Source: Methanospirillaceae archaeon
GTDB taxonomy: Archaea > Halobacteriota > Methanomicrobia > Methanomicrobiales > Methanospirillaceae
Length of the DNA: 47,632 nucleotides
Assembly (NCBI GenBank): GCA_016926505.1
Contig: JAFGOM010000121.1
Coordinates: 1 to 47,632 of the forward strand
Direction of reading: 5' to 3'
The translations under genes were made by a program, and so were the position numbers. This document shows positions 6,184-43,213 of the stretch, in pieces. The notes under the pieces were generated by a model, which worked only from the letters and a program-made list of their open reading frames with translations, was not told the origin of the DNA and searched no databases. How positions within the stretch are numbered: position 1 is the stretch's first letter; each line of letters begins with the position of its first letter.

Positions 6184-6331
6184 GGAAAGAACCCATTATC
6201 CTTTCTTTTTCCTGTCTATAGATACCAGATACAATAATCTCGCATGAGCATACGGAAAGATGATTGTTCCGGTTAATGACAGACTTTTCTCCCGGGTATC
6301 CCATGATTTGTATGGCTCCCATGGAAATCCC
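6184..6331. other. intergenic spacer between convergent units
   Basis: About 150 nt without a coding sequence. T-rich and C/T-rich stretches right after 6183 (TTATCCTTTCTTTTTCCTG) look like an archaeal terminator for the + strand gene. Nothing else is recognised. Confidence 0.3.
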
Positions 6332-6982
6332 TTAAAACTCCTTCTCCCCTCTTCTCTGCCATCTCCCATAAGGAACCATTATCTCAAACCTTGCTCCCAT
6401 ACCAAATATACCGGTCTCTTTTATCCAAAACCCGGTGATATCAAGTATCTCTTTTGAGAGAAAGAGCCCCAGACCGGTATTTTTACCAATCCCTGTCTGA
6501 AAGATGGATTCCTTCTGATCAGGAGGGATACCGGGACCGTCATCTTCCCAGATAATCACGAGGCTGCCATTCTCTTCCCTGCACCGGATCCTCACCATCG
6601 CACCTCTTCTGCATGCCGGATGATGTTATCATACAGATTGTAAAAGACCTTCTCAAGCATCTGATCTGCATAGAGAACGATATCAGGGCAGTCATTCCGG
6701 ATGGGGAGCCGGTCATCATCAATCATCGCAATTATTGCACTGACAGACTGCCATGTTGGTTGTGTTATCCCAAGCTCCTCATACATCTGCGTAAATTCGA
6801 TTCATTCCAGGATCATGGCAACAGTCTTCTTTATTTTCATCCCAGTACTCTGCCGGTTTTACATCTCCACAGGACTTCTCTATTACCCCGATGAATCAAA
6901 AAAGAGCAGTTATCTGGTTTACAATATCATGGCGGGTAATGCTCGAGAGTATCTGTAGCTTTTTATTCATGACACGGAGTGC
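6332..6982 (-). pseudogene. broken kinase end (HisKA-like plus HATPase) of the upstream PAS sensor
   Basis: Read on the minus strand directly after the TAA at 6983-6985, the frame still encodes LRVMNKKLQILSSITRHD and VNQITALF, a phosphoacceptor helix, until TGA at 6896-6898. Between about 6840 and 6900 the frame shifts. It continues as KIKKTVAMILE, TGA at 6802-6804, then IEFTQMYEELGITQP and the N-box LYDNIIRHAEE. A second shift near 6596 restores the first frame for the G1 box WEDDGPGIP and G2 box KNTGLGLFL, ending at 6332. The piece therefore holds every part of a histidine kinase core but carries two frameshifts and at least three stops. It cannot be made as one protein. The spacing from phosphoacceptor helix to the next helix also looks short, so a small deletion is likely. 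Confidence 0.85.
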
Positions 6983-9439
6983 TTACTCGGCCTTTTTGCG
7001 GTCAGTGATATCACGTGATATCCCGATTATCCCAACCGGTCTGCCCCCCTCATCCCGAAGCCAACGTGCAGAGTTCTCAACCATAATCGTGGATCCATCC
7101 TTACAGTACTCTTCTGTCTCAAAACAGAAAGTTCTCTTTGGTTCAGCAGTACCGGATCTTTCACGTTCCATCTCCCTGTGAAACAATGGTAACAGTGATG
7201 CAAATGATGCAGGGGTCCATATCTCATCAGGGGTTTGTACGAGCGACTCTTCCACCGAAAAGCCCTTCATCACCTGTACCGAGGGGCTGACATACAGGGG
7301 ATTGAAATCCAGATCATAGATACAGATACAATCTGCAGTATTATCAGCGATAAGGCGATACTTCTTCTCACTTTCCCTGAGTGCTTCTTCAGCCGCTTTC
7401 CGGCCGGTGATGTCTGAGAGCATCGCAAACGATCCCTGATAGACCCCATCTGCATCAAATATCGGGGTGATAGCAACCCGGGCCCAGAGATTCTTTCCAT
7501 CTTTCCTGATGAAACAACGCTCAAAATAATCGACCTCCCCGTTTTTTTGAACTTGTCTTCTCTGTTCATAATCGGTATGTTCACCCGGTGAGATGAAGGA
7601 AGAGACACAAAGACCGATCATCTCTTCAGGTGAGTACCCCAGCATCTCAGCCATTCGCTCATTCACGTAGGTTATCCGGAATAGAGAATCCATCTGCCAG
7701 ATCCCATCTGCAGAGGTATCGACAATCCGGCGGTACTGCTCCTCGCTCTCGCGGAGTGCCATCTCTATCTGCTTTGTCCCGGTGAGGTCATGAAAGGATG
7801 CAACTGACTGTCGTGTACCGGGTATCAGTCCGACGGTCAGGTTGATGGTATGGGTTTTCCCGTTCCGGGATAGAAAGAGAAAATCATACCGTTGAGGTGG
7901 ATCTGCACCTTTCATTCTCCTCTGATGATGAAACGCAACCATCCGGTCACGATCCTGCTGACTGACAAACTCTGTCCAGCTCCTGCCGATCACTTCTTCA
8001 GGAGGGTATCCGGATATCTCAATAAACGCGTTGTTTGCCAACGAGATTGATGTATCGTCCTCGATAATGATCGTTGGCGATTCAGTGTGCTCAAAAATTG
8101 CCCGGTATCGCTCCTCAGATAGGGCAAGGAGTTTTTCTTTCCCGACAATCTCATCCAGCTGCTGGCTGATCTCTTCTTCGGATGCAACGAGTTGCTCGCA
8201 CTGACCCCGAAGTTCCTCTTCTGATGCCGCAAGTTGTTCATGAGCAGCCCGAAGTTCCTCTTCTGCAGCTTTGCGATCTGTGATATCGAGGCAGGTCGAC
8301 TGGTACCCTATCATATCTCCGTTTTCATTATGGATAGTAGTGGCAGTCCCGAGTGCAGTGAATGAGGAACCATCAGACCTCTGTGCGATAAATTCCCCTT
8401 CCCAGCGTCCTGTGGTGTCCAGTTCCAAAAGGACCCCCGCCGCGTCTTCTTCATTGGCAAAGAACCCGGAAACAGGTTTTTTTATAATCTCTTCTTTGGT
8501 CTGGTACTTCCACATCCTAAGAAAGGCAGGATTTGCGTCGGTGATTAAACCCTTGTTATCAGCGATACTGTTGCCGGTTATTGAAGACTCAAAAATGATG
8601 TTCTTTAACAGGATCTGTTCTTCAGCCTTCTTCTTTTCAGTAACATCAATGTGGGTACCGATCGTTTTATCAGTCAGTTCTTTATCGGCATTGTGCAGTC
8701 TCCACCCCCGGGACTGTATCCAGATCCAGCGCCCGTCGGCATGCTCCATCCGGAAATCATTCTCATACATTCCGGGAGAAAGACTCGTTAGATATTCCAT
8801 GAAATGTCGGATCGCCTGGTCCCGGTCTTCGGGGTGGATCAGATGAAACCAGACCTCATTCAGGTTCGGACTCCCGGAGAAATCAAATTCGGCAGGATCC
8901 CTGCCGATCATCGAAAAATACTCAGGGCTGCACCAGAGGAAACCGGAACCGAGATCATATTCCCATGCCCCGGTATTTGAGACCGCGATGAGTGCTTTAT
9001 ATCGTTCACCAGCCTCCTCTATATCTCTCAAGGCCAGCTGTCTGGCAACTGCATATTGAATTATGTTATAGAGTTCGGCAAACTGAGGCTTTGGATCTCC
9101 CCCTTTCTGGAGATAAAAGTCAGCTCCTTCATTTAATGCCTCAATTACCACATCCTCCCTGCCTTTCCCGGTAAAGATGATGAAAGGAGTTGTATCGCCG
9201 TGCTTCCGAAGGTGCTTTAAGAATGCTATCCCGTCACAACCCGGCATCTGGTAATCAGAGATTATGGCATCAAACGATTGGTTTGACAGAAGGGAAATAG
9301 CCTCAGATGCACAGAGCGCAGTTGTGACAGTCAGATCACCTATTCTTTCAAGAAAAATTCTGCCAATCTCAAGAAGTGCCGGCTCATCATCAACATAGAG
9401 AACTGACAGGGGTATCATCTTTGTCGCCGGGTACGGCAT
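6983..9439 (-). CDS. response-regulator/multi-PAS sensor truncated before its kinase domain
   Basis: 818 residues. An N-terminal receiver domain (about 11-130) has the acidic pair Asp17-Asp18, phosphoacceptor Asp62 in ISDYQMPGCDG and the conserved Lys in FYLQKGG. Five PAS/PAC units follow at roughly 150-275, 280-395, 446-565, 570-690 and 695-815. A charged coiled coil (about 395-445, repeated EEELR...QLAASEEEL) separates the second and third. The last residues, DITDRKKAE, are the usual end of a PAC motif that leads into a kinase. The next codon is TAA, where GAA (Glu) would be expected. The surviving product could still be a soluble sensor but has no transmitter. It is divergent to the chaperone operon across a 267-nt spacer. 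Methionine 8 (9418) is an alternative start nearer the receiver domain. Confidence 0.8.
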   Translation of the reverse strand: MPYPATKMIPLSVLYVDDEPALLEIGRIFLERIGDLTVTTALCASEAISLLSNQSFDAIISDYQMPGCDGIAFLKHLRKHGDTTPFIIFTGKGREDVVIEALNEGADFYLQKGGDPKPQFAELYNIIQYAVARQLALRDIEEAGERYKALIAVSNTGAWEYDLGSGFLWCSPEYFSMIGRDPAEFDFSGSPNLNEVWFHLIHPEDRDQAIRHFMEYLTSLSPGMYENDFRMEHADGRWIWIQSRGWRLHNADKELTDKTIGTHIDVTEKKKAEEQILLKNIIFESSITGNSIADNKGLITDANPAFLRMWKYQTKEEIIKKPVSGFFANEEDAAGVLLELDTTGRWEGEFIAQRSDGSSFTALGTATTIHNENGDMIGYQSTCLDITDRKAAEEELRAAHEQLAASEEELRGQCEQLVASEEEISQQLDEIVGKEKLLALSEERYRAIFEHTESPTIIIEDDTSISLANNAFIEISGYPPEEVIGRSWTEFVSQQDRDRMVAFHHQRRMKGADPPQRYDFLFLSRNGKTHTINLTVGLIPGTRQSVASFHDLTGTKQIEMALRESEEQYRRIVDTSADGIWQMDSLFRITYVNERMAEMLGYSPEEMIGLCVSSFISPGEHTDYEQRRQVQKNGEVDYFERCFIRKDGKNLWARVAITPIFDADGVYQGSFAMLSDITGRKAAEEALRESEKKYRLIADNTADCICIYDLDFNPLYVSPSVQVMKGFSVEESLVQTPDEIWTPASFASLLPLFHREMERERSGTAEPKRTFCFETEEYCKDGSTIMVENSARWLRDEGGRPVGIIGISRDITDRKKAE

Positions 9440-17521: not shown

Positions 17522-19804
17522 ATGACAAGTGAGACTCCCTTTCTCCCTGAATCAGAATCCTTCTTTACTCATCAGGTCATAAAAGACCTTCTCGATGATA
17601 TCCCAGGAGCGGTCCTCATTGCAAAAAACAAAAATTTTTTTACCTGTAATGAAACTGCCATGACTCTATTTAAGTTCCCGGATCACTCCTTTATCACGGG
17701 AAAGGATCTCTGTGCCATCTCTGCTCCAATCCTTCCTGACGGATCGAAATCAGAAGTCGTGGGCAGAGACCTTCTTAACAAGGTGACTGCCAAAAAAAAG
17801 TTCCGCTTTGAGTGGGTATTCCAGAGAGCTGACGGCAGTACCTTTAACGCAAAAGTCACGGCAAAGCAGGCACGATCCGGTGACGGTTCCTTTATCATCC
17901 TGACCGTGGTGAATAATAATGCCGAGGCAAAGGTTATCCGGGATATCGAGATGCTCGCCCTCGAGATGAAGAAGGGAAATTTACGATCGAGACTTGAAAC
18001 CGAAGGATATCACGGGGATCTCGAGATGATGCTCAAAAGCATTAATGAGATGTTAAACGACATTCTGTATCCGTTCCGTGATATGAGCAAAGTCCTTGTT
18101 CAGATATCAAAAGGTGACATCCATGCACGGGCTGATAAGAAATACGAAGGGGAGCATGAGAAGGTCAGAAATGCCGTAAACGGCGTGGCAGATTCTATAA
18201 TACTGTTACGGGAGGAGATCACGAGATTAATCACCTCTGCGACGAGTGGAAATCTTGCAGAACGCGGGCGGCCGGAACTCTTTTCCGGGGCGTATGCAGA
18301 GTTGATACACGGACTGAATGATATGCTCAATACCATTCTTGGCCCGATACGGGCCGGCAACCAGGTTCTGCAGAAGATGAGCAGGGGAGATCTCTCAGAA
18401 CGGGTGACCATTGAGTGTGTCGGTGATCACGCCAGACTGAAAAATGCAATAAACAACCTTCATGACTGGCTCTCTGAGCTTATCACCTATGTAACCGCTA
18501 TCTCAGAGGGAGACCTTCTCGCATCCATCGAAAAAGCATCAGAGAATGACGAGATGTATGAACCCCTTATCAGGATGAGAGATAACATAAAATCACTCGT
18601 TCTGGATGTTGATATGCTTGCCACTGCAGGAACAAGAGGCGATCTCACAACACGAGCTGACTCTTCAAATCACATGGGAGATTATAAAAAGATTGTTGAT
18701 GGGATGAATGCAACGCTTGATTCAGTGATACAACCGGTTCAGGGAGCGATGCAGACTGCGGAAAGGTACGCAGCATATAACTTTGCATACCGGATATCAG
18801 GGGATATTCCGATGACCGGGGACTGGCAGGCATTTAAAAAGGCTCTCGATCTCGTTGGTCAGAATATATCTGATGCGATAGCACTCATTAATGAACAGGT
18901 AACAATTCTTATCTCGACCGTAACACAGACCCGGGAGAGTATCGGGGATGTTTCCCAGGGGTCAACCATCCTTGCCACGATATCAGAGAAGGTAAGCGAC
19001 AACGCACGAAGGGGACGCGAAGGCGTTGCCCAGATTATACAGGCGATGGAGAACCTTGCGGTGAACGTATCAGCAGTTGCCGGAAGTGCTGACGAGGTAA
19101 ACCGCCTTGCAAACCAGACAAATATCATCTCTGAGAAAGGAACCGAACTTGCAAAGAAGGCTGAGATGGGTATGGCTGACATCACGACATCAACCGGACA
19201 GGTGGTCGCAATTGTTCATGAGATCATGAACGAGATGAAGAAGATCAGCCAGATAACAAAGGTGATATCAGATATCTCCAGCCAGACAAATCTTCTGGCC
19301 TTGAATGCTGCCATCGAGGCTGCCCGTGCAGGGGAAGCAGGCCGTGGATTTGCCGTCGTTGCTGCGGAAGTAAAATCCCTTGCCCTTGAGTCCCGGACAT
19401 CTGCAGAGAATATTACCGAAATGATAGAGAATCTCTCGAAAAAGACCGAACTGGCATCGGTCACCATGGATAAGAGTGCCCGGTCGGTTGAGTTTGGAAG
19501 TAACGCTCTTCAGGAGACGCTGGGGGTCTTTAACGAGATCATCGAGGCAATCGCTACCATAAACGTGCGGGTGGATGAGGTTGCCAGGTCTGCTGAACAA
19601 CAGGCAGCAGCAGTAGAAGAGATAACCGCCTCAATCGACGAGGTCAATGATGAGATCATCAACACCGAAAAGGAAGCAGTATCTGCAGCAGCAGCAAGCC
19701 AGGAAGCAGCAGCAGGATCGGATCAGCTCTCTATCCAGTCTGATGAAGTTTCCCGGGTTTCAGAGCGGCTCAAATCCGAACTTCTGAAATTCACGATATC
19801 CTGA
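17522..19804 (+). CDS. soluble methyl-accepting chemotaxis protein with PAS and poly-HAMP array
   Basis: 760 residues without any transmembrane helix, so a cytoplasmic receptor. Residues about 15-140 form a PAS-like domain ([17 protein letters not shown] ... [11 protein letters not shown]). From about 145 to 470 there is a chain of HAMP-like modules, each with a GD/GN-L-x-x-R turn: [45 protein letters not shown]. The signalling coiled coil follows, with the tip near residue 583 ([20 protein letters not shown]). It is not followed by cheW. Start ATG 17522 has GGATATG and a TATA box upstream. Expected role: sense an intracellular signal and act on CheA through CheW. Confidence 0.93.
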
Positions 19805-20098: not shown

Positions 20099-20504
20099 AT
20101 AATCGTTTCCTGCACAGTCTTTTTTCTGGTGATTCCAGGTGCTGATTATCAAAAAAGACCTGTCGGACTATAAAGTTCTTTCTGCAATCTTACGGCATAA
20201 AGGCAGAATAAGGGAGAAGAATCAATCAGGCAATACCCGTTCCGATCGGCTACCACACGAGGTACGGGTAAAGAGAGCAGATACCGTTATAGGGTTTGTG
20301 TAACAATGATGATATGTTCACCCGATAATGGTATCCCGGGTATTGGATCTGACAATCATTCTGTCATGCATACGGATAACTGCCGGACAGAAGAATCAGC
20401 AGGTTAAGCATACGGTTCCCACACTTCCTGCAGGAACAAAACCCGCAACCGGTCTGCCCGGGTTTTTTGGAACCCTCCGTTTCGAAACAGATTGCATAAA
20501 AGGA
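20099..20504. other. intergenic region, no feature recognised
   Basis: About 400 nt. An open frame extends upstream of the next gene from 20328, but its codons do not resemble protein sequence, so it is treated as non-coding. The inverted pair AAAAAAGAC / GTCTTTTTTC around 20118-20161 could be a weak hairpin. No tRNA or other RNA gene was found. Confidence 0.3.
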
Positions 20505-22754
20505 ATGAGGAGAATGCTTGAGAAGAGAAAAGTTGTTTTTTCCATAATCCTTGGATTAGCAGGTTTTATCGGTGCATTTTTCTCATTCCAGTTTGATATC
20601 GCACCACTTACCATATCCCTTATCTGGAGTTACTGCTTTCCCCTTGCCGCAGCCCTTGCATATGGCAGGAATTATGGATGTATTGCAGGTCTGTTCGGTC
20701 TTGCTGCATTCTTTCCCATCTTTCTCTGGCCATCAAACGGGTGGGGGTACGGTATCACCGTCGCCCTTCTCCTTTTGTGGTTTATCTGGCACGGGTACTG
20801 CAGGGATATCCGTAATGATAAGAAGAGATTATGGTATCATCCCCTGATTGCCCAGGTTCCCTATGCCCTGTTTTACGGTTTGATCACATACCTTGTATAC
20901 CCGTTCGCCCTCTCCTGTAATCCTCCCTTCTGGCAGGATACTGCGGTTACCTCAATCTCCTCAGAACTCCTGGTGTCAATGATCATCATGGCCACAATAA
21001 TGATGTATCTTAACCTTATTATCGCAGATACCATGCTTCTGGTGCCGGTAATCAGAAAGATACTCGGACTTCCGGTCAGAAACGAGAGCAGGAATAATGG
21101 CGTCATAATCCTTTTATCAATCGGTATCGCTATCGTCATCTGGGCAGCAATCGTGGCATACACCCAGACCCTGGTCATGATGAAATTCCCACAGGCAGGA
21201 ATCGATCTCTCGGATCCGTACTACCTGCTCAGCTTCATCATTCTTGTCCCGTCCGGGTGCCTTGTCGGAGGAATCCTCGCTCGTTATTTTGAATCCCGGT
21301 ATGAGATAGAGGACCAGCTCCGCAAAAGCGAGGAGAAATTTCGATCGCTCTATAACCATATGACAGAGGGGGTTGCATTGCATGCATTCGTCTATGATAC
21401 TGCTAAAGGAGGTATAAATTATCGTATTCTTGATATCAACCCAAGTTTCGAGGCGATCTTTAACCTGAAACGAAGCGATGTAATCAACAGGATCGCAACA
21501 GACGTATTCACCAGAGATCTCCAGCCATACCATGAGATGGTTCTTTTAATGGCAGAAAAACACATCCCGACCTCCTTTGAGGCATCTATTCCTGATGTGG
21601 GAAAAACTCTGCTTATCTCTGTATCACCTCTCGGAAAAGAAGGATTCGCAACCATTTGTACGGATATTACTGAAAGAAAGCGATTTGAGACTGCACTCAT
21701 ACAGAGCGAGGAAAAATGCAGGATACTCGTTGAGCATGCACCGGAAGCCATCCTTGTTATCGAGATCGACACAAAGCGGTTTATTGATGCAAACATTCAG
21801 GCAGAGCGTCTTTTCGCATGCAGCAGGGAAGAGATACTGCAATCTGCACCGGAAGAGTTCTATCCTCATTATGAGGAGGATGACCCTGCATACCTGTTAT
21901 GTAAGGAGAAGATGTCCCTCTGCAGCAGACAGGCATTATCAGGAGAGGAGATCGTCACCGAGCAGACTTTTCGAAACAAAGCAGGAGAGGAGATTCTTTG
22001 TGAGGTACGGCTTGTCAGGTTACCGGGTCCGGGAAACCGTGTCAGGATCAGTCTGACCGATATTTCAGAACGAATACGAATTGCAGAAGGATTTGCGCAG
22101 GCGACAAAGAAATTAAACCTCCTTTCTACGATAACCTGCAATGATATTCAAAACAGCATCTACGGACTGTATGCCTATATTGAACTGCAACAGGATCATG
22201 GTCTTGATGATCTTCATTCATCCCTGATCCAGAAAGAGATCAATCTTATCAATAAAACCCTGAAAATCCTTAATTTTGCAAGAAATTACCAGGATCTCGG
22301 ACTGAAACCACCATTATGGCAGAATGTTACTCATGTATTCTTATATGCCATCTCACACATGGATGTATCACGTCTGTCCCGAAAGGTACATCTTGACAAC
22401 CTATACCTCTTTGCTGATCCCCTGCTTGAGAAGATACTTGCAAGTCTCGTCGAGAATGTCCTTGTTCATGCCCCTTCTGCAACCGGGATACAGCTCACCT
22501 ACCGGATCTGTCCTGACAAAACCATGCAGGTACTGTTTGCCGATGACGGTCCCGGAATTCCCGATGACCTAAAAGAAAGTATTTTTGAACGCAACCTTGA
22601 GATTAAAGGAGGTATGAGTCTCTTTCTGACCCGGGAGATGCTCTCTATAACCGGCATATCGATCGTTGAGAAGGGAATTTATAAAGAAGGAACACGGTTT
22701 ATCATGACGGTCCCCAGAGGGGGATACCGCTTTAGTGAAGATGCCGATCTGTAG
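20505..22754 (+). CDS. membrane PAS sensor with probable inactive histidine-kinase end
   Basis: 749 residues from ATG 20505 (ATG 20514, after GAGGAGA, is equally possible). About eight transmembrane helices fill residues 5-265. Two PAS/PAC domains follow (about 275-400 and 405-530), the first ending FATICTDITERKRF and the second RISLTDISERIR. The phosphoacceptor region reads LSTITCNDIQNSIYGL where related kinases here have TRHD. The His is Asn546 and the Arg is Cys. The ATPase part keeps an N box (LVENVLVHA) and G1 (DDGPGIP), but the G2 glycine loop is GGMSLFL instead of NTGLGLFL. Autophosphorylation is therefore unlikely. It might still bind nucleotide or act as a partner of another kinase. 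No reading-frame lesions were found, so it is a maintained gene. Confidence 0.85.
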   Translation: MRRMLEKRKVVFSIILGLAGFIGAFFSFQFDIAPLTISLIWSYCFPLAAALAYGRNYGCIAGLFGLAAFFPIFLWPSNGWGYGITVALLLLWFIWHGYCRDIRNDKKRLWYHPLIAQVPYALFYGLITYLVYPFALSCNPPFWQDTAVTSISSELLVSMIIMATIMMYLNLIIADTMLLVPVIRKILGLPVRNESRNNGVIILLSIGIAIVIWAAIVAYTQTLVMMKFPQAGIDLSDPYYLLSFIILVPSGCLVGGILARYFESRYEIEDQLRKSEEKFRSLYNHMTEGVALHAFVYDTAKGGINYRILDINPSFEAIFNLKRSDVINRIATDVFTRDLQPYHEMVLLMAEKHIPTSFEASIPDVGKTLLISVSPLGKEGFATICTDITERKRFETALIQSEEKCRILVEHAPEAILVIEIDTKRFIDANIQAERLFACSREEILQSAPEEFYPHYEEDDPAYLLCKEKMSLCSRQALSGEEIVTEQTFRNKAGEEILCEVRLVRLPGPGNRVRISLTDISERIRIAEGFAQATKKLNLLSTITCNDIQNSIYGLYAYIELQQDHGLDDLHSSLIQKEINLINKTLKILNFARNYQDLGLKPPLWQNVTHVFLYAISHMDVSRLSRKVHLDNLYLFADPLLEKILASLVENVLVHAPSATGIQLTYRICPDKTMQVLFADDGPGIPDDLKESIFERNLEIKGGMSLFLTREMLSITGISIVEKGIYKEGTRFIMTVPRGGYRFSEDADL

Positions 22755-41884: not shown

Positions 41885-43213
41885 TTATTCCGGGTACCAA
41901 TCTGTCCGGTTCCTGATACTATCTGAGGGTATATCAATGACAAACCGGGCACCCTGAGATGAACCTGCCTCGTGAATCGTACCCTGATACAGTTTGAGAA
42001 TCTCCCGTATAAGATAGAGACCAAGACCGGTGTTTTTTCCATACCCGCGGGTAAAGATCGCCTCCCGTTCATTCTCCAGAATACCGGTTCCATCATCCTG
42101 TATCTCGATAGACACACCAGTATCAGACTGTACTGCCCGAATCAGTATTGATGAGACTGACCTGCCATGCCGGATGGCATTATCAATGATATTGGTAAAG
42201 ACATGATCAAGAAGGCAATCAGAATATACCACGATGTCAGGGATATCGACAGTAAAGGTGAGACCTGATCCTGAAAAATTACTGATTATATCCTGAATAA
42301 TCATCGGTAAGGGCCGCCACTTCATATCTGAATGAGCGCTCTTTAAAAAAAGACTGCTCTCATGAAACAACCGGGTCAGTTCACCGATTTGATCTCTTTC
42401 TTTCGTTACGTACCTGACAAAAGCGGGATCGGTTGCTTCATGATACGCGATCTCATGGTACCCGGAGAGTGCGGTGAGAGTGTTAAACATATCATGACGG
42501 GTTACCGAGCTCATAAGATGGATCTTGTCGTAGGCCAGCCTGAGTTCCCCTTCTACCTTCTTCCTGGTGGCGACTTCTGCTGCAAGTTCCTCTACATTAT
42601 CTCCAAGTTCCCGGTTTATTAGTGAGAGCTGATCATTTGCAATGAGTAACTCCTCTTTTAAACTCTGGAGCTCCTGGTTCTTCCTGACTGCTACTTCATA
42701 CGTGGAGAGGAGAATATTGAGAATCTGGAACCGTGATGATGGAATGTAATACTTCTTCCCGGCAAAGATGATCTCAATACCGATCTGCATTGTCTCTCCC
42801 TCCTGCAGGTATTTGTTTGCAATAATAATCTCGATGCGATTGAGCAGGTACTGTTCATCATATGGTTTCATGATGAAATTGTCAGCTTCACACTCAAGAC
42901 CGCGTATCACATCGATAGGATCCTTTAACTGGGTCAGAAGAATGACGGGAATAGGGCGGGTATCAGGATTTGTCTTAATAGTCCTGCAGAGTTCATACCC
43001 ATCCATTGCCGGCATCAGGATATCTGTCAGGATGAGATCCGGACGTACCTCGGTAACCTTTTTTAAAGCCTCCACCCCGTTCGCTGCGACCATAACCTGA
43101 TATCCGGCATCAAGAAGAAAAAAGACCAGCTGCTCCGCCTGGGTCTTACTGTCCTCAACTACCAGAACAATTTTTTTTTCTTCTGTCTGTGTTTTATCGC
43201 GTGTATCGGCCAT
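41885..43213 (-). CDS. response receiver-histidine kinase hybrid
   Basis: 442 residues from ATG 43213, with AGGAAATATAAA upstream (ATG 43249 would add 12 residues). Receiver domain about 14-135, with acidic VVEDS, phosphoacceptor Asp64 in ILTDILMPAMDG and Lys in FIMKPYDE. A coiled coil (about 175-230) leads to the phosphoacceptor helix with His240 in SSVTRHDMFNTLTAL. The ATPase has the N box IDNAIRHG, G1 DDGTGIL and G2 KNTGLGLYL, all intact. No membrane helix, so cytoplasmic. Unlike the two other kinase-like genes in the window (6332-9439 and 20505-22754), this one has every catalytic residue. It is divergent from the chemotaxis genes and may feed into them. Confidence 0.93.
   Translation of the reverse strand: MADTRDKTQTEEKKIVLVVEDSKTQAEQLVFFLLDAGYQVMVAANGVEALKKVTEVRPDLILTDILMPAMDGYELCRTIKTNPDTRPIPVILLTQLKDPIDVIRGLECEADNFIMKPYDEQYLLNRIEIIIANKYLQEGETMQIGIEIIFAGKKYYIPSSRFQILNILLSTYEVAVRKNQELQSLKEELLIANDQLSLINRELGDNVEELAAEVATRKKVEGELRLAYDKIHLMSSVTRHDMFNTLTALSGYHEIAYHEATDPAFVRYVTKERDQIGELTRLFHESSLFLKSAHSDMKWRPLPMIIQDIISNFSGSGLTFTVDIPDIVVYSDCLLDHVFTNIIDNAIRHGRSVSSILIRAVQSDTGVSIEIQDDGTGILENEREAIFTRGYGKNTGLGLYLIREILKLYQGTIHEAGSSQGARFVIDIPSDSIRNRTDWYPE

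Follow-up and report, generated by a model that had tools for sequence, protein, structure and literature searches.

The window, a contig of 47,632 nucleotides (C22) in the 2.94 Mb genome of a Methanospirillaceae archaeon, carries a gene for a histidine-kinase-like protein with no histidine at the phosphoacceptor position. The longest open reading frame runs unbroken over positions 20328-22754 of the forward strand and encodes 808 amino acids, by which residues are numbered throughout. Met60 (position 20505) is the more likely start of the protein because the first hydrophobic segment starts at residue 67; numbered from Met60, Asn605 of the 808-residue frame is Asn546. The gene is preceded by one encoding PAS, HAMP and MCP-signal domains (17522-19804) and followed by a 162-residue ORF that gave no Pfam match.

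20505-22754, forward strand: gene for the His-less protein resembling a histidine kinase (longest ORF 20328-22754; start inferred from the position of the hydrophobic segment)
20526-21290, forward strand: membrane part, residues 67-321, about six hydrophobic segments (hydropathy scan of 19 residues, threshold 1.6)
21333-21689, forward strand: first PAS region, residues 336-454 (PAS_8 at 336-394; PAS_7 at 397-454, under its cut-off)
21729-22073, forward strand: second PAS domain, residues 468-582 (PAS_4, Pfam)
22041-22292, forward strand: DHp-like helical hairpin, residues 572-655 (model helices 2-52 and 58-85; model residue + 570)
22140-22142, forward strand: Asn605, the phosphoacceptor position (alignment with TRHD paralogues)
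22143-22154, forward strand: D606-I-Q-N609, retained D/E-x-x-N/S/T motif (alignment)
22314-22733, forward strand: CA (HATPase_c) domain, residues 663-802 (Pfam and model)
22353-22358, forward strand: S676-H677, the Ser-His pair fixed throughout the His-less branch; the model places it where the first CA helix ends (alignment and model)
22455-22457, forward strand: N710, N box, LVENV (alignment)
22542-22556, forward strand: G1 box D739-x-G-x-G743, DDGPG (alignment)
22605-22625, forward strand: altered G2 or ATP lid, K-G-G-M-S-L-F (T/S761 of normal kinases lost, G764 replaced by S)

Pfam recognised PAS domains and HATPase_c in the protein. HisKA was absent from its matches, and residues 61-337, which are mostly membrane, matched no Pfam family even at E 10. 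The preliminary description had given the protein eight membrane helices, a number that a simple hydropathy scan did not confirm; it gives about six segments. Its other observations on the gene proved accurate: the frame is intact, the N box and G1 are kept (N710, D739, G741 and G743 are all present), G2 is altered (IKGGMSLFL), and Asn occupies the phosphoacceptor site (STITCNDIQNS, containing TCND). His stands at this site in 25 of 29 paralogous loci of the same genome and is missing in the other four. The TRHD motif that had been ascribed to related kinases of the window was likewise found, in an intact REC kinase near 42502 and in a broken kinase near 6937, both on the reverse strand. The broken gene (6200-9439, reverse strand) is a REC-PAS kinase of the TRHD family with a stop and a frame change within its DHp/CA part, near 6200-7100. 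In the same window, a canonical TRHD kinase is therefore found broken and the His-less protein intact.

A search with the window protein gave 65 matches in its own genome, and its four closest paralogues, which are the four without His, read VFTD, TFNE, TFQD and AFTD at the site. Five His-less cores from this genome were aligned, and the profile was used to scan public genome contigs and 61 genomes. Neither the whole protein (E 1e-80) nor the membrane part (E 0.001) matched any of 60 relatives, and therefore the core of the window protein was followed in place of strict orthologues. From the public contigs, the best 80 of 349 stretches encoding a relative were taken, representing 78 distinct loci; among these best 80, the closest cores in named contigs came from Methanoregula, Methanolinea, Methanospirillum, Methanoculleus and unclassified Methanomicrobiales, so that the host is most likely a methanogen belonging to this order.

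The first collection held 152 distinct cores, 60 with His and 92 without, and the final tally 171 family cores of at least 150 bits, 69 with His and 102 without; these proportions are not the natural ones, since the searches behind the collections used His-less profiles. The 152-core set excludes duplicates, cores under 190 residues, L031 and L110, and the tally of 171 excludes 16 cores below 150 bits (15 with His, one read as E). The residue replacing His in the 102 cores was Q in 40, N in 20, T in 16, E in 8, D in 6, S in 6, R in 3, and A, K or M in one each. Two His-less cores, L040:5773-6975 and L057:3616-5499, fell outside the branch in the tree and had no Ser-His pair; they are possibly separate losses of His. 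Both were kept out of the 90-row counts below and are included in the counts of 92, 68 and 102.

In a phylum sample of 392 genomes, with seven candidates scored per genome, 44 genomes matched His-less profile A2 at E 1e-75. All were Methanomicrobiales, and 20 of them had matches of at least 300 bits. Among the loci read from this search, the 20 best (L140-L159) were all His-less with the Ser-His pair, as was L160 (283 bits); L161-L169 (262-275 bits) kept His. The His-less branch was found here only in Methanomicrobiales. The preliminary description had proposed that the same Asn in several species would speak for selection. Loss of the His is indeed branch-wide, but the replacing residue varies. 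Orthologues with His, which it had named as the sign of a recent mutation, were not found within the branch, a result that applies at the level of the core given the lack of strict orthologues. A recent private mutation of the His is ruled out by the branch-wide loss.

Twelve columns were invariant in the 90 clade rows. Only two of these, S676 and H677, varied widely in the 60 normal rows, where the commonest residues were S (11) and T (8) at the first and E (11) and A (8) at the second. The Ser-His pair was present in 90 of 90 clade rows and in 100 of the 102 His-less cores; H677 occurred in 100 of 102 His-less compared to 6 of 69 normal cores. E701, also invariant in the clade, varied less in the normal rows (E in 37 of 60). 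Residue 612 was F in 88 clade rows and Y in two, the window protein having Y, compared to T or M in 42 of 60 normal rows. R685 was present in 72 of 90 clade rows and in none of the 60 normal rows, and R604, directly before the site, was replaced by F in 74 of 90 clade rows. An Arg before the site was kept in the His-less members L132, L106:2531-4657, L109:2501-4645, L064, L093, L211 and L217 (TRRD, TRQD, TRKD, TRTT, TRTG, TRNE, ARTD), which may be early side branches.

An acid at His+1 together with N, S or T at His+4 was seen in 86 of 90 clade rows, or in 68 when only N or T was accepted at His+4. The acid itself was present in 87 rows. The His+4 residue was N in 66, S in 18, T in five and D in one; in the window protein it is Asn609. 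N710, D739, G741 and G743 were all present in 79 of 90 clade rows compared to 55 of 60 normal rows. The remaining 11 clade members may, to judge from their sequences, bind nucleotide poorly, because they do not keep all four residues. The lid residue T/S761 was retained in 17 of 90 clade rows compared to 53 of 60 normal rows.

HATPase_c matched all 72 branch members examined with Pfam, and HisKA matched two of the 72 even at E 0.1. A structure model was computed for the window core with 71 branch members (alignment A2; mean pLDDT 89.4, pTM 0.80). It contained a DHp hairpin and a CA domain, with the Ser-His pair where the first CA helix ends. The best structural matches of the model were histidine kinases (9jfj_A, Z 18.5, rmsd 3.0, 221 residues aligned) and included DivL, and the nearest solved protein by sequence was HK853 of Thermotoga.

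The selection test used the closest 40 of 122 pairs in the identity range and describes other pairs of the branch, the window gene having no close pair: dN/dS was 0.05-0.40 in 18 close His-less pairs (0.40 at dS 0.10; next highest 0.31) and 0.04-0.29 in 17 His pairs, and five His-less pairs were saturated. The suggestion in the preliminary description that a His-less protein is being maintained gained support at the level of the branch, with its shared loss of His, open frames and purifying selection in close pairs elsewhere. The role suggested there, as a regulator of another kinase or a ligand sensor, may apply. We regard it as barely credible that the gene is decaying without function. The window copy does have a lid altered more than most, the same window holds the truly broken kinase near 6200-7100 (reverse strand), and purifying selection is known from pairs that do not include this gene; however, its frame is open for 808 codons, and the branch around it has conserved new residues and shows purifying selection in other pairs.

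Tree supports, which are SH-aLRT values of short searches, were below the 95 mark in all analyses: in a quick tree of the 152 cores with trait columns included, 90 of the 92 His-less rows formed one branch (91); a 150-row tree without columns 604, 605, 676 and 677 gave one trait change (88), compared to a mean of 47.2 for shuffles; and a tree of the CA domain only, without the Ser-His columns (137 columns), gave two trait changes, with L098 the sole His row inside the smallest clade holding all 90 (86). L098, from Methanolinea UBA473, has both histidines (TRHD and ASHLD). L094, L096, L097 and L107 have TRHD together with CTH, a Thr-His pair. Because these loci carry both residues, the second His (H677) was probably present before the classical His was lost, as far as the sequences and weakly supported trees indicate. 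L094, L096, L097 and L107 also show a recurring pair of REC kinase genes, the first with RHDILNQ and an altered lid (NEKT) and the second with both histidines.

Since the branch shares a different, new His, its role is probably other than ordinary kinase signalling. One form that this could take is a move of the working His: H677 would have arisen beside the classical His, which it then allowed to be lost, and would now supply the chemistry of the branch, as a new phosphoacceptor or catalytic residue, or a key contact. The contrast between the clade and normal kinases at S676 and H677, the frequency of H677 in His-less cores, the position of L098 inside the His-less clade of the CA-only tree and the Thr-His pair in the four TRHD loci are all consistent with such a move. 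We nevertheless think it unlikely, as the model puts H677 at the end of the first CA helix and a structural or docking role would produce the same pattern. To our knowledge, no known histidine kinase uses a His at this position. If the working His had moved, the branch would be a distinct class of signalling proteins that use the histidine-kinase fold, some of them operating together with an iron alcohol dehydrogenase.

Gene fusions and neighbours were read from the collected loci. At least 12 of the 90 clade genes encode an N-terminal receiver domain (the loci cut genes). The receiver domains of these 12 keep the residues D, D, T/S and K, the first residue being cut off in L061. Receiver genes were considered as typical neighbours and rejected: they lay near 21 of 68 His-less compared to 8 of 15 normal kinase genes and were not commoner beside the former. 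In the window's own genome, the paralogue L006/L198 has a periplasmic binding protein gene on one side and a TRHD kinase gene on the other, and the paralogue L004/L200 overlaps a gene for an iron-containing alcohol dehydrogenase. Contig C38 of this genome encodes a paralogue of 295 residues that lacks a sensor part. The dehydrogenase of L200 had 36 matches in 30 of 61 genomes. A His-less family gene lay directly behind the dehydrogenase gene on the same strand in 10 of the 30 loci inspected, with about 1.5 kb of sequence on either side, and, where the dehydrogenase had at least 65% identity, in 8 of 9 loci. The pair was also present in 11 of the 78 contig loci.

Dehydrogenase gene followed by a His-less gene on the same strand: L200:4133-6164 (own genome, C38); L202-L209, L211, L217
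Dehydrogenase gene followed by a His-less gene on the same strand: L039, L040, L053, L065, L068, L070, L072, L085, L086, L090, L101

The association with the dehydrogenase is repeated and occurs in one part of the branch, which does not include the window gene. It had gone unremarked in the preliminary description, as had the invariant Ser-His pair and the receiver-fused members. In L065, L072 and L206 the order is TRHD kinase, alcohol dehydrogenase, His-less protein. In a Methanosarcina-like genome (G175; L175/L177/L196), a related alcohol dehydrogenase gene (47-51%) lies between a histidine-kinase-like gene and a frame-split TRHD kinase gene. The dehydrogenase-side kinases of L220 and L222 were considered as intermediates having His with Ser-His or Glu-His and were ruled out; they are unrelated histidine kinases with LTHDVNN or VTHDVNN.

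The kinase genes next to the own-genome paralogue L006/L198 and just before the dehydrogenase genes of L065, L072 and L206 bring in another explanation, in which the His-less protein is a pseudokinase subunit. It would pair with TRHD kinases of its family in mixed dimers and tune how active they are, and its CA domain might serve the His of the partner. The retained DHp hairpin and nucleotide residues would fit such a role, and the ChrS pseudokinase of Corynebacterium is reported to heterodimerise with HrrS (PMC9491836). However, no intact kinase gene lies beside the window gene, it is doubtful that a CA domain with an eroded lid could serve the His of a partner, and the near-invariant Phe612 in the DHp helix, where most normal kinases have T or M, points to a different packing or docking face. 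We consider this explanation possible, though on the doubtful side.

The explanation that we prefer, and hold tentatively, is that the autokinase His was lost early in HisKA-like sensor proteins of a Methanomicrobiales branch, which was then retained and multiplied as a kinase-dead, nucleotide-binding module acting on receivers as a phosphatase or a reader. The His-less protein would dimerise and bind ATP or ADP, and a receiver domain would dock on the DHp hairpin. The D-x-x-N side chains would then remove the phosphoryl group of the receiver, or the phosphorylation state might merely be read. Sensor parts (here the membrane part and two PAS domains) and nucleotide would switch this activity, and the phosphoryl group would come from the family's ordinary TRHD kinases. 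Sequences and the model suggest this explanation by the branch-wide loss of His, the D/E-x-x-N/S/T motif, the nucleotide residues, the receiver fusions, the histidine-kinase fold and the dN/dS values. We favour a kinase-dead module acting on receivers because the branch keeps the His+1 and His+4 residues and most nucleotide residues while dropping the His and the lid Thr, and because work on CrdS separates these roles. In CrdS the Asn at His+4 is reported as required for phosphatase and dispensable for kinase activity, the acid at His+1 as required for kinase and dispensable for phosphatase activity, and a His-to-Ala mutant still lowers the half-life of CrdA-P from 53.5 to 2.6 min (PMC3510030).

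Several points count against this explanation. The conserved acid at His+1 would not be required of a pure phosphatase, and Ser (18 of 90) or Asp (1 of 90) at His+4 would also speak against phosphatase activity. In the ExxN phosphatases CheC and CheX, which have a different fold and are comparable only in the way they work, the receiver is acted on by an acidic and an amide residue spaced three positions apart; by analogy, the retained His+1 acid could serve in the same manner. A His-to-Ala change in PleC reportedly abolished both activities, and DivL is described as having neither (PMC4211667). Receiver genes are no commoner beside His-less than beside normal genes, which speaks against action on receivers, and the invariant S676-H677 has no place in the proposed mode of action.

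Methanogen proteins resembling histidine kinases and lacking the phosphoacceptor His are known from Methanosarcina acetivorans, the MA_type 2 kinases MsmS and RdmS (PMC11784639). That paper describes the H-box region as wholly missing in MA_type 2 kinases, unlike the branch, which keeps a DHp region that aligns with TRHD kinases and in which the His alone is replaced. RdmS is reported there to bind and hydrolyse ATP while lacking autokinase activity, and the authors suggest that it phosphorylates a different target. The CA domain of the His-less branch might similarly phosphorylate another protein, an idea that we judge decidedly unlikely: its lid residues are eroded, and kinship with the MA_type 2 group gained no support in five Methanosarcina-like genomes (chosen by their MtmB genes; MsmS and RdmS were compared by description), where the closest relatives retain TRHD and all other matches stay below 57 bits.

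His-less proteins resembling histidine kinases are thus already known, in DivL and in the MA_type 2 kinases including RdmS. Those that we met in the literature are single proteins (DivL) or a group from one species (MsmS, RdmS and other MA_type 2 kinases). We found no description of the present branch in the open-licence PMC literature. It differs from the known cases in its retained DHp region, fixed Ser-His pair, size and taxonomic place. Here about 100 His-less cores group into a single branch that has fixed residues of its own, an intermediate form, receiver fusions and a recurrent enzyme neighbour, which makes the function of the histidine-kinase fold after loss of kinase chemistry testable. 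The His-less class may be undercounted, because at least one large survey removed His-less sequences where they were identified (PMC4558063).

Compared to canonical HisKA kinases (the TRHD paralogues and HK853), the branch shares the DHp hairpin and CA domain, N box, G1, F box, and PAS or receiver sensor parts. It differs from them in the missing phosphoacceptor His, the eroded lid, the change from Arg to Phe directly preceding the site (74 of 90) and the invariant Ser-His of the CA domain. DivL of Caulobacter is similar in having a histidine-kinase fold with the His replaced, in being kept by selection and, as reported, in reading a phosphorylated receiver (PMC4211667); its structure (4q20, 4q20_B) aligned with the model at Z 16.9 and rmsd 6.3 over 214 residues. 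Unlike the branch, DivL is alphaproteobacterial and has Tyr at the His site, a residue seen in none of the 102 His-less cores. The "HisKA, no HATPase" proteins of Archaeoglobi and Methanomicrobia also resemble histidine kinases, are kinase-dead and have been suggested to be phosphatases (PMC5847659). They are the mirror image of the branch: they keep the His and lack the ATPase domain, whereas the branch does the reverse.
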